Under the pieces are notes generated by a model. The model had not been told where the DNA came from. It worked only from the letters and a program-made list of their open reading frames with translations, and did no database searches. Positions 25,896 to 35,705 of a DNA stretch of 64,000 bases are shown piece after piece (the first letter of the stretch is position 1; each line of letters starts with the position of its first letter). Position numbers and translations under genes: made by a program. Source of the stretch: Armatimonadota bacterium (lineage in GTDB: Bacteria > Armatimonadota > HRBIN16); assembly GCA_026003175.1 (NCBI GenBank), contig BPGT01000004.1, forward strand, positions 124,001 through 188,000, read 5' to 3'.

Positions 25896-25921
25896 CAAAA
25901 TAATCTGATAAAGATTATCAT
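25892..25921 (+). promoter_or_regulatory. katG promoter with overlapping Fur/PerR-like box
   Basis: TTGACA, 18 bp, TATCAT. The 15-mer TGATAAAGATTATCA at 25906-25920 overlaps the -10 and differs from the Fur core TGATAAT-N-ATTATCA at one position. A Fur or PerR repressor released by peroxide or iron status would fit katG. The composite insertion ends exactly at the first T of the -35. Confidence 0.75.
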
Positions 25922-25950: not shown

Positions 25951-28152
<2,202 letters not shown>

Positions 28153-31046: not shown

Positions 31047-33227
31047 CTAACGAAATGTTCTGACCACGGCGTTCAATACCAGCAGCACAGCAAAGGCGAT
31101 GCCCAGTGGGAGGAAGGTAGCTACCCACGTCCACTTTGCGCTCTTGGTCTCGCGCCATATCGTCAGGATGGTTGTGGAGCACGGGTTGTGCAGCAGAGAG
31201 AAGAGCATCAGGCTGATGGCGGTCATGGTTGTCCAGCCGTGTTGTTCCACCAGCAGGCGACGCAGGTCGTTCAGGCTCTCCAGCTCGGTTATCATGCCCG
31301 CGCCCATGTAGGTCATGATGATCGTAGGCACAACAATCTCGTTGGCGGGGATAGCGATAATGTACGCCAGCAATACCACACCATCCAGCCCGATAGCACG
31401 TCCAACCGGGTCCAGCCAGCCGGAAATCCATTGCGACAGGCTCTGCCCGCCCGCGTGGATATTCGCTAGCAACCAGATAACTCCTCCTGCCGGTGCTGCC
31501 ATGACCACCGCCCGCCACAATACCAGCAAGGTACGGTCGATCAGCGAGGTATACAGCACCGCCAACACATTGGGCTTGCGATATGGGGGTAGCTCCAGCG
31601 TAAAGCTGCTGGCTTCGCCTTTCAGCACGGTACGCGATAGCACTGCGGATACGATGAAGGTGGTCAATACACCGATTAACACCACAGCAACCAGGGCGCC
31701 GGCTGCCACTGCTGCGGCAAACGCGGGCGGAAACGCTGCCGCCACAAACAACGCGCTCATAGTAATCAACAGCGGCCACCGCCCGTTGCAGGGCATGAAG
31801 TTATTGGTGAGAATAGCTATCAGTCGCTCGCGCGGCGAGTTAATAATGCGCGTTGCCACCACGCCCGCAGCGTTACAACCCAAGCCCATCGCCATTGTCA
31901 GCGCCTGCTTGCCGTGCGCGCCTGCCTTCTTGAAGAAGCGGTCCATGTTGAACGCCACACGCGGCAGATAGCCCATGTCCTCCAGAATGGTGAATATCGG
32001 GAAGAAGATTGCCATCGGCGGTAACATCACGGAGACCACCCATGCCAGCCCTCGATACACACCATGCCACAGAAAGCCGGTGAGCCACCATGGCATGCCC
32101 AGCGTATTGAAGAGTGCACTACCCTTCGCCTCTATCCAGAATAATCCTGTAGCGATGAATTCGGAAATCACGTTTGCGCCCTGGATGGTGACCCAGAAAA
32201 CGCCCATCAACAGCAATCCCATAATGGGCAGTCCCCATACGCGCGAGGTAAGGATGCTGTCCAACCGCTGGTCCCAGTCCCAGCGGCGGTCACCCTTCCG
32301 GTGCACTACTTTGCGGGCGATGGCTTCCGCTTCAGCATATAGCGATTCTACCATGCGGTCACGGAAGGAACCCTCCAGATGACGCTGTAGCATCTCGGCG
32401 TGTGAGAGGATATGGCTGGCGTACGTGCGCGCTCGTTCTACCTCTTCCTCGCTGGCGTCATTTCTGGCGAGGCGTAGCAGATCGCCGTTTTCCAGCGACC
32501 GACGCACGTTGTAGTCGCCGTCCAGCAAGCGCATGGCTACCCAGCGTGCGTTCGGGAGGTCAGGATAGGCTTGCCGTATCACGGGTATCAGTTCCCCTAG
32601 AGCCTGCTCTACCTTTTCATCCACCTTCACCCGGCGCGGCGAAGTGCGGAGCCTGCCCTGCACCAGTTCCGCTACCGTTTGCATGAGCAATCCCAGCCCA
32701 ACGCCCTGACGCGCCGCCGTCGGCACGACAGGCACACCCAGCTCGCGTGACAGAGCACGATGGTCTATCTCGATACCCTTACGCTCTGCTTCGTCCATAA
32801 GGTTCAGGCACACCACCACGCGGTCGGTAATTTCCAGCACCTGAAGCACAAGGTTCAGGTTGCGCTCCAGAGCGGTCGCATCCACTACCACCACGACCGC
32901 ATCGGGTTTGGTAAACAGCACGAAATCACGAGCGACCTCTTCATCTACCGAAGCGGAGAGCAGGGAGTAGGTGCCCGGTAGGTCAACGATTTTGTATCGC
33001 TTGCCGTTAAACTCGAACGCGCCCTCCATGCGAGTGACCGTCTTGCCGGGCCAGTTGCCGGTGTGCTGGCGCAAACCGGTGAGCGCATTGAACACGGTGC
33101 TTTTGCCGGTGTTCGGATTGCCCGCCAGCGCCAGCACGTAGTCGAACGAGTCCACCCGTACGCCCATCTGCACCAGGTGCTCACGTAAAGCGCACGATTC
33201 ACAGGCGTGACCGGCTGCTTTTCTCAT
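31047..33227 (-). CDS. feoB: Ferrous iron transporter FeoB
   Basis: A 726-aa Fe(II) transporter with an N-terminal GTPase (Walker A GNPNTGKST, then DLPGTYSL, NLMDEA) and a C-terminal membrane core with the Gate repeats (GLGCNAAGVVATRIINSPRE). A cysteine pair at the very N-terminus (CESC) precedes the G domain. It starts 30 bp after the DtxR-FeoA gene and is probably in the same operon, under the iron-box promoter. GGAGGAAC precedes the ATG. Confidence 0.95.
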   Translation of the reverse strand: MRKAAGHACESCALREHLVQMGVRVDSFDYVLALAGNPNTGKSTVFNALTGLRQHTGNWPGKTVTRMEGAFEFNGKRYKIVDLPGTYSLLSASVDEEVARDFVLFTKPDAVVVVVDATALERNLNLVLQVLEITDRVVVCLNLMDEAERKGIEIDHRALSRELGVPVVPTAARQGVGLGLLMQTVAELVQGRLRTSPRRVKVDEKVEQALGELIPVIRQAYPDLPNARWVAMRLLDGDYNVRRSLENGDLLRLARNDASEEEVERARTYASHILSHAEMLQRHLEGSFRDRMVESLYAEAEAIARKVVHRKGDRRWDWDQRLDSILTSRVWGLPIMGLLLMGVFWVTIQGANVISEFIATGLFWIEAKGSALFNTLGMPWWLTGFLWHGVYRGLAWVVSVMLPPMAIFFPIFTILEDMGYLPRVAFNMDRFFKKAGAHGKQALTMAMGLGCNAAGVVATRIINSPRERLIAILTNNFMPCNGRWPLLITMSALFVAAAFPPAFAAAVAAGALVAVVLIGVLTTFIVSAVLSRTVLKGEASSFTLELPPYRKPNVLAVLYTSLIDRTLLVLWRAVVMAAPAGGVIWLLANIHAGGQSLSQWISGWLDPVGRAIGLDGVVLLAYIIAIPANEIVVPTIIMTYMGAGMITELESLNDLRRLLVEQHGWTTMTAISLMLFSLLHNPCSTTILTIWRETKSAKWTWVATFLPLGIAFAVLLVLNAVVRTFR

Positions 33228-33257: not shown

Positions 33258-34313
33258 CTACGCCGTCCGTTGTTCGACGCTATCCCGCTCCCCTTGTGAG
33301 GTAGCTTCATGTCCATCGCGTCTCACCCATATCCAGTCTGCCTGCTCACGCCGCAGGGCGATCAGGGTATCACGTACCCGATACGCCACAGGGTCGCCAA
33401 ACGCCGAGCGCATAACCACCTCGATTTCCGCACCGGGAGTAATTCCCAGGTCCAGGAACCGGCGGCGCGTAAGTCCCTGGCAGGCATCGTCGATACGTAA
33501 CACGGTTGCCTTCTCGCCCGGTTCCAGCGAGCCTAACCGTTCCCCCAGGGCAATGCGCGCCGCAGGCAGGGCTTCGCGTACGGTGATGTTCGCTGCAACC
33601 ACCGGCGCGAGCACATGCTCATCGGTATCGCTCTCCAGCACGATTCGCGTCGGCGAGCGTTCAACAACCCGCACCACCATGCCCGGGCGCAGCCCTTCTG
33701 CCACAATCTGTGCGTACACATGCGGAGGCTCATCCTCTACGTGTACGATTTGCGCGGGCTTGTCCAGCGGAAACTCCACCAGCGACTGTCCCTCTATCTT
33801 CGGCATCTCACCGCTGGCAGAAGGGATGGGGTCGCCATGCGGATCTAAGGTAGGATGTCCCATGTAGGCGTCCAGCTGCTCTATCTGCTGGGGCGTAAGG
33901 GAGTGTTCCATACGGTGCGCAAAATCGTGCACCTCAGCCGGCGCAACGGAAGTTTCATAGGCAAGATAACGCTCGAACAGACGATGTGCCCGCACCACCT
34001 GAATTGCTAGACGATGTCCTTCTGGGGTCAAACTTAAGCCGTTTGCCGTGGCACGTAACAGCCCTTGGTTTTCCATCCGCTGCACCAGCATCGCCGCTAG
34101 ACGTGTGGGTACTCCCAACGCACCCGCCAGAGATTCCACCGATGCCAACCGTCCGTTGTGCTCACGCTGGTGCAGGTGCATCAGGGCATCTTCAATCGCC
34201 TCGCGGGACCGCAGCCACTGCTTTCGCCTCCAACGGGAAACCGCTCCCCACTGTGGCGCGAACAACAACAGCATTGCGACAACCAGCGCAACCAGATAAC
34301 CGTTTTCAAACAT
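33258..34313 (-). CDS. Membrane-anchored DtxR-type regulator fused to FeoA domain
   Basis: A 351-aa fusion. Residues about 5-22 form a membrane helix, about 35-110 an iron-dependent-repressor winged HTH (SVESLAGALGVPTRLAAMLVQR), about 110-170 a dimerisation/metal region (EVHDFAHRMEHSLTPQQ), and about 190-335 FeoA/SH3-like domains ending CQGLTRRRFLDLGITPGAEI. It is the first gene of the feo operon. A membrane helix before a DNA-binding domain is unusual and suggests a repressor held at the membrane near FeoB. Two TGAGAA...TTCTCA sites around its promoter suggest autoregulation. Confidence 0.85.
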   Translation of the reverse strand: MFENGYLVALVVAMLLLFAPQWGAVSRWRRKQWLRSREAIEDALMHLHQREHNGRLASVESLAGALGVPTRLAAMLVQRMENQGLLRATANGLSLTPEGHRLAIQVVRAHRLFERYLAYETSVAPAEVHDFAHRMEHSLTPQQIEQLDAYMGHPTLDPHGDPIPSASGEMPKIEGQSLVEFPLDKPAQIVHVEDEPPHVYAQIVAEGLRPGMVVRVVERSPTRIVLESDTDEHVLAPVVAANITVREALPAARIALGERLGSLEPGEKATVLRIDDACQGLTRRRFLDLGITPGAEIEVVMRSAFGDPVAYRVRDTLIALRREQADWIWVRRDGHEATSQGERDSVEQRTA

Positions 34314-34327
34314 ACTCTATACCTTTC

Positions 34328-34399
34328 TGAGAATCATTCTCAATAACATTATACCTGTCAGGTGCATCTTCTATCAAGCAAGATGAGAAAAGATTCTCA
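34328..34399 (-). promoter_or_regulatory. feo operon promoter with two iron-box-like operators
   Basis: On the minus strand: TTGATA, 18 bp, TATAAT (34377 down to 34348). Box 1, TGAGAATCATTCTCA, is at 34328-34342 over the transcript start. Box 2, TGAGAA-4-TTCTCA, is at 34384-34399 just before the -35. Both match the inverted-repeat plan of Fur/DtxR sites. Confidence 0.75.
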
Positions 34400-34463: not shown

Positions 34464-34501
34464 ATACAAAAAAGTGGGCTGAGGAACCCCTCAGCCCACT
34501 T
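34464..34501 (-). terminator. Terminator of the CHRD genes
   Basis: AAGTGGGCTGAGG, a 4-nt loop and CCTCAGCCCACTT, followed on the minus strand by TTTTTTGTATG. This is a strong intrinsic terminator. Confidence 0.88.
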
Positions 34502-34518: not shown

Positions 34519-35052
34519 CTAGATTCGCCGCCGTCGGAGCGCTAGCAGTCCCACACCGATGCCCAACCCAGCCATCGTAGCGGGCTCCGGCACCACCGGC
34601 AAAGCGGTAATCTGTCCGCGAATCTCACCGCCCGGATAAGCGGTAGTGTGGATATTGATGTACGTGTTACCGCTCAGCAGGTTTGCCTCTTCAGCTGCGG
34701 GGAACGACGCGCCATTGATTACCTTGATAAGCTGGCTGCCGAGCGAGGCGTAGCTGCTCCCGCCACCAATGGGGAAGATGACAGGTCCGTTGACACCCAC
34801 AGGGGCGCGGTGGATGTGTGAAGCGGTAAGGTCGCTTTGCAGGATGCCGTTCACTGTGATAGCCAAGTTGATGGTCTTGGTGACATCATCATAGCTGCCG
34901 AAGAGCACGCCATTAGCACTGGTAGAGACCGGTGGTACCTCTTGCGAACCAGTCAAGGTCGCTTGCAGGTACCACAATCCTGCGCTGGATGGCAATGCTA
35001 CCGCTGCTACCAGTACCGCCAGCAAAGCGAAGCGCAATCCAAATCTGCTCAA
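34519..35052 (-). CDS. CHRD-domain PEP-CTERM protein 1
   Basis: A 177-aa exported protein: signal peptide, CHRD domain (TGSQEVPPVSTSANG, ASHIHRAPVGVNGPV, YPGGEIRGQI) and a PEP-CTERM tail (VVPEPATMAGLGIGVGLLAL then RRRRI). The tail is the sorting signal for exosortase, which is encoded at 53112. Start TTG 35052 is chosen because AAGGAGGG lies 9 bp upstream; the frame is open to 35094. It follows the paralogue below by 54 bp in one operon. Confidence 0.9.
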   Translation of the reverse strand: MSRFGLRFALLAVLVAAVALPSSAGLWYLQATLTGSQEVPPVSTSANGVLFGSYDDVTKTINLAITVNGILQSDLTASHIHRAPVGVNGPVIFPIGGGSSYASLGSQLIKVINGASFPAAEEANLLSGNTYINIHTTAYPGGEIRGQITALPVVPEPATMAGLGIGVGLLALRRRRI

Positions 35053-35106
35053 AAGACTGTCCCTCCTTTCAATGGGCGAACTGTGCGCATGCACCCTCCT
35101 TGCATT

Positions 35107-35631
35107 CTACACCTTGCGTCGGCGCAACAGGAGCAACCCCAGTCCTGCAGACAAGCCAGCTAGCGACATGGGTTCGGGCACGGGGATGAGCTGCCCTCGG
35201 ATTTCGCCGCCGGGATGAGCAGGGGTGTGGATGTTGATGTAGGTGTTGCCCGCCAGCAAGTCGGCTTCATATGCGGTGGGGAATAACGCTCCCGTGATGA
35301 ACCGCGAGAAAATCACTCCGCTGCCGCTCCACGAAGCGCCGCCGTCCAGATTGTAAATGACGGGCCCGTTTACACCCGGTGCGCCGACGTGGATATGAGC
35401 GCCTACGATATCGCTTTGCGAGATTCCAACCTCGTACACCGCCAGATTGAACAGCTTGGACACGTCATCGTAGCTCATGATCGCTTGTCCATATGCGGAC
35501 GTACTAACAGGTGGAACCTCCTGACTGCCGGTGAGGCTTGCAGTCAGTACCCAAACTGTAGCGCTGGAAGGCAGAGCTACCGCTACGAGCAATGCTGCAA
35601 ACAGCCCGAACCGTAGCGTTATTCGGTACAT
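35107..35631 (-). CDS. CHRD-domain PEP-CTERM protein 2
   Basis: A 174-aa paralogue of the neighbouring protein with the same signal peptide, CHRD motif (TGSQEVPPVSTSAYG, HIHVGAPGVNGPVI) and PEP-CTERM tail (VPEPMSLAGLSAGLGLLLLR). ATG 35631 has AAAGGAGGAAGG upstream. Its own promoter at 35706-35734 probably drives both genes. The function of CHRD domains in such surface proteins is not known. Confidence 0.9.
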   Translation of the reverse strand: MYRITLRFGLFAALLVAVALPSSATVWVLTASLTGSQEVPPVSTSAYGQAIMSYDDVSKLFNLAVYEVGISQSDIVGAHIHVGAPGVNGPVIYNLDGGASWSGSGVIFSRFITGALFPTAYEADLLAGNTYINIHTPAHPGGEIRGQLIPVPEPMSLAGLSAGLGLLLLRRRKV

Positions 35632-35705
35632 ACTCCTTCCTCCTTTCATCGTCATGGACGTGTACAAAACACCTTTCGTGTGAGCTGAGCTCCCACTGTG
35701 CTTTT

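Follow-up and report, generated by a model that had tools for sequence, protein, structure and literature searches.

The locus considered here raises the question of what a DtxR-type protein does when it appears to start with a membrane helix, ends with two FeoA domains and is encoded just ahead of the ferrous iron transporter FeoB. An earlier reading, made from the sequence alone, had suggested that it may be an iron sensor-repressor held at the membrane, which would bind two palindromes around its own promoter and thereby regulate the transporter directly. We have examined this proposal with the window, that is, the whole 64,000-nucleotide stretch of DNA that was analysed, and with the relatives of the protein in other genomes.

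Domain architecture and translation start

The gene lies at 33258–34313 on the minus strand, as do the domains listed below, and codes for 351 residues. According to the open reading frame, Pfam, the AlphaFold model and the family alignment, the protein consists of a membrane helix, a winged helix-turn-helix (wHTH), a DtxR metal-binding and dimerisation domain and two FeoA domains; this is the domain order that the sequence-only reading had described, and Pfam and AlphaFold bear it out. The predicted N-terminal membrane helix comprises about residues 2–22 (34248–34310), with a Kyte-Doolittle hydropathy of 2.17 over 19 residues. It is followed by the wHTH at residues 36–97 (34023–34208; Pfam and alignment), which is without the DtxR DNA-binding signature; no Pfam match to the DtxR DNA-binding domain (PF01325) was found in the 351-residue protein. 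The metal-binding and dimerisation domain PF02742 matches residues 96–164 (33822–34028) with an E-value of 2.9e-23. The first FeoA/SH3-like domain, at about residues 178–247 (33573–33782; Pfam, AlphaFold and structure superposition), occupies the place of the SH3 domain in soluble DtxR, and the second, at residues 259–331 (33321–33539; Pfam), has sequence matches to FeoA chains such as PDB 7r7b and 2k5f. The FeoA model PF04023 matches the two stretches with an E-value of 3.8e-28 and 97.8 bits, the curated cut-off being 23.

The AlphaFold model, built from a nine-row alignment, has a mean pLDDT of 83.7 and a pTM of 0.72. It shows the N-terminal helix at residues 2–18, a second helix at 24–34, the wHTH with helices 37–52, 59–66 and 70–82 and a short wing, and past it the dimer-domain helices and two strand-rich, barrel-like FeoA parts. 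Fold searches matched mainly residues 33–248, which superpose on the DtxR-family structure 5zr6 with Z 25.2 and an rmsd of 2.0 over 206 residues; for the DNA-bound DtxR-family structure 8pw0 the values are Z 20.3 and 1.8 over 136 residues. In the model the wHTH fold is intact and contact with DNA would be possible. This speaks for a membrane-tethered one-component repressor, the DtxR part of which would bind both palindromes when iron is plentiful and so silence its own operon.

The sequence-only reading had named a start codon downstream of the helix as what would overturn it. In a check covering ATG, GTG and TTG, in-frame codons of this kind were found at residues 1, 14, 16 and 17 and then at 45, and there is an in-frame stop two codons upstream of residue 1. 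Since none lies between residues 17 and 45, skipping the helix would cost part of the HTH, and an untranslated helix is thus ruled out. Directly after the helix there is a basic stretch, RWRRKQWLRSR, which suggests an orientation with the N-terminus outside and the C-terminus inside.

Distribution, membrane helix and linkage to feoB

With the window protein as query, an ortholog matching from residue 1 is found in 9 of 10 genomes of the genus. Within the window's phylum as a whole, at least 14 of 291 genomes, from five genera, have the protein, and a strong full-length match (E-value of 1e-79 or better; in G684 it is split over two contigs) is present in at least 31 of 297 genomes of the phylum of an Acidobacteria MAG and at least 16 of 400 of that of an Anaerolineae MAG. 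These counts are lower bounds, as scoring was limited to the few best candidates of each genome. We read the three phyla as Armatimonadota, Acidobacteriota and Chloroflexota. The genome-by-genome search covered these three, and one wider contig scan with a single protein gave 8 loci. Of the 61 loci, 60 were read, namely 14 from the window's phylum, 30 of 31 from that of the Acidobacteria MAG (G816 being without a locus) and 16 from that of the Anaerolineae MAG.

A family search for the same domain order had been proposed together with the original reading, and its outcome agrees with it. A hydrophobic helix, defined by a hydropathy of at least 1.5 over 19 residues before the HTH, is present in 54 of the 60 relatives; three loci (L103, L122 and L142) run off their contigs, so that 54 is the count among 57 relatives with a full 5' end. 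The helix as a quirk of one genome is thereby ruled out. In 52 of the 54 the C-terminal flank of the helix has the higher net charge, and taking the positive side as cytoplasmic this suggests that the N-out, C-in orientation is general in the family. No helix was found by this criterion in L039, L041 and L043, which have complete 5' ends and come from other genera of the window's phylum. Two of these, L041 and L043 (G216 and G215), keep the metal site, the FeoA domains and feoB although the helix is missing, and L043 has in addition lost a large part of the region made up of helix 2, recognition helix and wing; the pair is a natural test case for a role independent of DNA.

A feoB gene, recognised by its P-loop, lies downstream in 59 of the 60 loci. 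By a simple rule that takes the first ATG or GTG of FeoB, the median distance is −4 nt, with an exact 4-nt overlap in 27 of the 59. The exception is L024, identical in sequence to L062, where a sugar-isomerase-like and then a methionine-synthase-like gene follow, both named from a look at their sequences.

The flanks of the 60 loci, which on the 3' side reach into feoB and stop there, yielded no stand-alone feoA, and the sole additional match to the FeoA model there is a DtxR's own domain, in L083. With FeoA in the same chain and no other feoA detected nearby, the protein might be a constitutive assembly factor, in which the FeoA domains and the anchor would serve the folding, stability or GTPase of FeoB while the metal site would be structural. 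A precedent is FeoC, a small protein of feo operons (feoABC) that is described as protecting FeoB from the protease FtsH (PMC10710835; FeoC is treated also in PMC8749426).

Metal site and DNA-binding signature

To compare the family with soluble DtxRs, near-duplicates above 0.9 similarity were removed, which reduced 60 family rows to 51 and 40 soluble rows to 33. The soluble set used (n=32, L086 being left out as a neighbouring membrane protein) is mixed and was gathered by similarity to the membrane family, not randomly.

The metal ligand positions of the window protein, in a register set by phmmer and MAFFT alignments, are D42 (inside the wHTH), H110, E114, H129, H133, E136 and H137; the DtxR/MntR ligands are taken here to be numbered D8/M10, H77/79, E83, H98, E102/105 and H103/106. 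Among the 51 non-redundant rows the conservation is 46 of 49 for D42, 50 of 50 for both H110 and E114, 51 of 51 for H129, 50 of 51 for E136 and 51 of 51 for H137. Position 133, the cysteine of DtxR (C102), is E in 23 rows, H in 16, Q in 7, D in 3 and another residue in 2, so that E/H/Q/D account for 49 of 51. In our judgement, ligands of the DtxR regulatory site that are this close to invariant are more than would be expected of a scaffold. This argues against the assembly factor with its structural metal site, which we consider quite improbable.

The DNA-binding part presents the opposite picture. PF01325 is matched at an E-value of 0.001 by none of the 51 family rows (among them L103, a fragment without the HTH) and by all 32 soluble DtxRs, whereas at the same threshold PF02742 and FeoA are matched by all rows of both sets (51/51 and 32/32). 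The recognition-helix combination S/T74 plus M76 occurs in 0 of 50 family rows against 29 of 32 soluble ones, and H/Y88 of the wing in 0 of 49 against 32 of 32. The absence of PF01325 and of S/T74 plus M76 speaks against the one-component repressor. Other differences are smaller and leave contact with DNA possible, which counts against the FeoB-directed reading given below: the R79 position is K/R in 33 of 50 family rows and in 27 of 32 soluble ones, and the recognition helix has a mean net charge that is modestly lower, +0.4 compared to +1.4.

The same part of the protein also changes in a different manner. At a dimer-domain identity of 40–50% the identity of the recognition helix amounts to 19% in the family (239 pairs) and 46% in the soluble proteins (254 pairs), while helix 1 is 56% identical in the family and 42% in the soluble set, and helix 2 is alike at 35% and 34%. 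The recognition-helix values are 26% against 43% in the 50–60% bin, approach each other at 60–70% (34% against 39%) and 70–80% (48% against 51%), and separate again above 80% (70% against 87%). Taken with the missing signature, this indicates that the wHTH domain is constrained, but not where DtxR reads DNA. A fast-changing recognition helix could also result from operators that themselves change, which, like the small contrast in the middle bins, is a point against the FeoB-directed reading.

A tree built from the metal region and the first FeoA region, without the HTH and the membrane helix and with L103 and L122 dropped, sets the family (49 rows) apart from the soluble DtxRs (32 rows) with a support of 100/100. 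Soluble proteins with a second FeoA-like region (L105, L106, L109, L110 and L115, all from the phylum of the Anaerolineae MAG) group with the soluble DtxRs.

Another option considered was a dual function, that is, DNA binding in some lineages combined with control of FeoB in all. In its favour, some lineages in the phylum of the Acidobacteria MAG have basic recognition helices. In 8 orthologs of the genus, however, the recognition helix is less conserved than the dimer domain (73% against 87% identity), the reverse of what is found for the soluble DtxRs of the genus (81% against 76%; 7 rows, of which L033 is a distant paralog). We consider a dual function very improbable.

Promoter boxes and the FUR-family protein

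Upstream of the gene there are two palindromes. The box TGAGAATCATTCTCA at 34328–34342, a conserved element of the FUR 7-1-7 type located by palindrome search and in orthologs, lies over the expected transcription start, and an imperfect 16-nt palindrome, TGAGAAAAGATTCTCA at 34384–34399, was found by the same search upstream of the −35 hexamer. Between the two sits a sigma-70-type, promoter-like TTGATA-18-TATAAT (34348–34377, minus strand; 11 of 12 hexamer matches), and similar promoter hexamers are visible in the orthologs. The two palindromes are the only TGAGAA..TTCTCA pairs with 0–14 nt between them in the window, the mean of 100 shuffles being 0.02, and both are beyond chance. It was therefore correct that two such palindromes bracket the promoter. 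As a conserved device, the double box is ruled out: the box at the transcription start is exact in 7 of 9 genus orthologs and has one mismatch in the other two (L027 and L029), but the second box is present in only 1 of 9, namely the window's own.

The box at 34328–34342 agrees at 12 of 14 positions with the Fur/PerR consensus, which we take to be a 7-1-7 inverted repeat near TGATAATnATTATCA, and none of 200 mononucleotide shuffles is as good. The genome has a single exact copy of the TGAGAATnATTCTCA box, that of the feo promoter; there is no other site below two mismatches and there are four at two. A single exact box is also what a dedicated local regulator would give; it favours the one-component repressor and counts against the reading in which the protein acts on FeoB. 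With TGAnAATnATTnTCA and at most one mismatch, 5 sites are found in the 4.1 Mb genome, two of which are the feo and katG promoters, both in the window. The other three (L072, L147 and L149) are without a clear iron-gene promoter, the L149 site falling inside the FeoB G-domain ORF of a second Feo system. With so few sites, a wide regulon is ruled out.

The katG promoter carries a near-perfect Fur/PerR-type box, TGATAAAGATTATCA, at 25906–25920, the gene itself being at 25954–28152. This box is present in 5 of the 6 katG promoters of the genus that could be read, with none in L157; L155 is cut by a contig end, L156 was not extracted, and two genomes of the genus have no katG match.

One FUR-family match is found in each of 9 of the 10 genus genomes and none in the tenth, which is 77% complete. 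The gene in the window's genome (L076, G000:C2:421004-421354) is followed by a peroxiredoxin-like gene, and the protein has an SRFDG..HQH pattern that we read as PerR-like. In the L076 promoter there is a motif close to GTGAAAATAGGAACGAATACTATT, seen in the 8 genus sequences read (L079 was not extracted). As the box at 34328–34342 is of the FUR 7-1-7 type, resembles that of katG, and one PerR-like FUR is encoded, we infer from these sequence features that it belongs to the FUR-family protein.

Outside the genus, 3 of 48 loci (L043, L097 and L101) have an upstream Fur-consensus match that is reached by at most 5% of shuffles, which is about the number expected by chance; the count concerns Fur-consensus boxes only, and L103, L122 and L142 are without upstream DNA. 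A FUR box upstream of the relatives outside the genus is thus ruled out, and the protein family and the Fur box do not travel together. In addition, 10 of the 60 loci have a gene for a canonical soluble DtxR at a distance of at most 1.5 kb (7 upstream on the same strand and 3 upstream on the other), so that in these a DNA-binding DtxR is at hand.

Taken together with the absence of PF01325 and of S/T74 plus M76, the type of the box, its likeness to that of katG, the single ortholog with the second box, the chance-level occurrence outside the genus and the nearby canonical DtxRs make the one-component repressor unlikely, even though transcription regulators bound to the membrane do exist as a class (PMC10269533). 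Of the original proposal, the membrane-anchored, DtxR-type sensor architecture with FeoA domains and linkage to FeoB is supported, but a repressor that binds both boxes is not. The statement that the protein regulates the transporter directly may nevertheless be right in a protein–protein sense.

Proposed function

Since the metal site is kept and the DNA-reading signature is lost, the protein is probably an iron sensor at the importer and not a switch of genes. The reading that we somewhat favour is that of an iron sensor, tethered to the membrane and equipped with FeoA, which would act on FeoB, while the FUR-family protein would repress the operon. The protein would then be a regulatory subunit of the Feo importer. 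Its N-terminal helix would anchor it in the inner membrane, with the remaining domains in the cytoplasm, where the DtxR-type metal site would read Fe(II), or Mn(II). A change in the dimer could be relayed via the FeoA domain to the FeoB G domain, and in the iron-replete state the importer would be slowed or destabilised. The winged helix would have kept its fold but been freed from a DNA operator, and could serve in protein contacts or as a hinge. The operon's transcription would be controlled separately, and in the genus this would fall to a PerR-like repressor of the FUR family, acting at the TGAGAATnATTCTCA box that covers the transcription start.

In broader terms, a DtxR repressor fold may have left DNA, kept its metal switch and absorbed FeoA, to become a membrane-anchored, post-translational iron gate of FeoB found in several phyla. 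We put this broader view forward tentatively, as slightly less likely than not. Besides the points already raised, the three relatives without a helix and the L024 locus without an adjacent feoB speak against the favoured reading of a sensor acting on FeoB.

If this scenario is true, FeoB activity would be set at once by cytoplasmic Fe(II) and not via transcription, by a well-understood Fe(II) switch fused to FeoA and tied to the membrane beside FeoB. Point mutants of the known ligands would allow a direct test of metal-gated control of FeoB. The protein would moreover be a clear example of a bacterial repressor fold that has left DNA to control a transporter, and a caution against annotating its kind as metal-dependent transcriptional regulators.

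Relation to known systems

The nearest described relative that we found is PgMntR of Porphyromonas gingivalis, reported as a soluble DtxR-family protein with twin C-terminal FeoA domains; it binds both Fe(II) and Mn(II) and also promoter DNA, that of its own operon, which includes the FeoB-type manganese transporter FB2 (PMC4805248). Compared by description, the two share the order wHTH, metal/dimer domain, FeoA, FeoA and an operon with a FeoB-type transporter. They differ in that the main text on PgMntR mentions no membrane helix (the word "transmembrane" occurs 0 times) and gives Cys108 as a predicted ligand, where the window protein has H133 and the family E/H/Q/D. For a protein of the PgMntR type one would expect a canonical DtxR HTH and no anchor, in contrast to the predicted membrane helix and the complete lack of PF01325 seen here.

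With DtxR, IdeR and MntR (PDB 5zr6, 8pw0, 1u8r and 1c0w) the window protein shares the wHTH-dimer-SH3 fold over residues 33–248, with Z 20–25, and the ligand positions. It differs from them by the membrane helix, the second FeoA domain and the missing PF01325 match and recognition-helix and wing signature.

Regarding FeoA itself, the FeoA of Bacteroides fragilis FeoAB is described as contacting the FeoB G domain in a nucleotide-dependent way, and the same source states that FeoA-DtxR fusions were removed by hand from its FeoAB survey (PMC8980893). As in FeoA and Feo(AB) fusions, a FeoA domain is here brought to FeoB, the second one being that with the matches to 7r7b and 2k5f; the difference is that FeoA rides on a DtxR metal sensor with a membrane anchor.

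The FeoC fold is a winged helix. The likeness to FeoC would be one of function: FeoC is small and regulator-like, is encoded in the feo operon and acts on FeoB at the protein level. The window protein is, however, much larger and has a DtxR metal site, and no FeoC match is among its listed Pfam matches up to an E-value of 10, where the HMMER filters drop most of those above about 0.1.

Membrane-bound one-component regulators are reported to be widespread, those of the ToxR/CadC type responding to extracellular information (PMC10269533). The window protein resembles the latter in combining a predicted membrane helix with a putatively cytoplasmic winged helix, the fold of which is kept, but it would sense in the cytoplasm and has no DNA-binding signature; the main text of the cited survey does not contain the word "DtxR". 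In the literature searched, which was largely without subscription papers and without preprints, we found no description of a membrane-anchored, feoB-linked DtxR-FeoA protein. As DtxR-FeoA fusions and soluble twin-FeoA DtxRs are already known, what is new is the membrane-anchored, feoB-linked form of the DtxR fold.

Gene neighbourhood

As the sequence-only reading had it, FeoB is encoded next to the sensor gene. The feoB gene (31047–33227, minus strand; 726 residues; Pfam and TIGR00437) begins 30 bp downstream and matches TIGR00437 over its whole length with an E-value of 8.2e-129. The N-terminus of FeoB carries a CxxC motif, CESC at 33192–33203, ahead of the G domain, and a CxxC before the P-loop is present in 53 of the 59 FeoBs partnered with family members. 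The motif might be a metal or redox site in communication with the sensor.

Upstream of the feo operon are two tandem ORFs of secreted type (34519–35667, minus strand). A CHRD domain and a PEP-CTERM sorting signal were recognised in the first, and the second is assigned to the secreted type by its sequence similarity to the first alone. A strong hairpin of 13 pairs that resembles an intrinsic terminator (34472–34501, minus strand) lies between the CHRD gene and the feo promoter.

Finally, the window's genome has a second Feo-type system on another contig (L001/L031, G000:C7, about 29.2–32.4 kb), composed of a canonical DtxR, a short FeoB G-domain ORF of 193 residues and a stand-alone FeoA, the latter being the only stand-alone FeoA match of the genome. 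This system is possibly a split FeoB together with a manganese importer.
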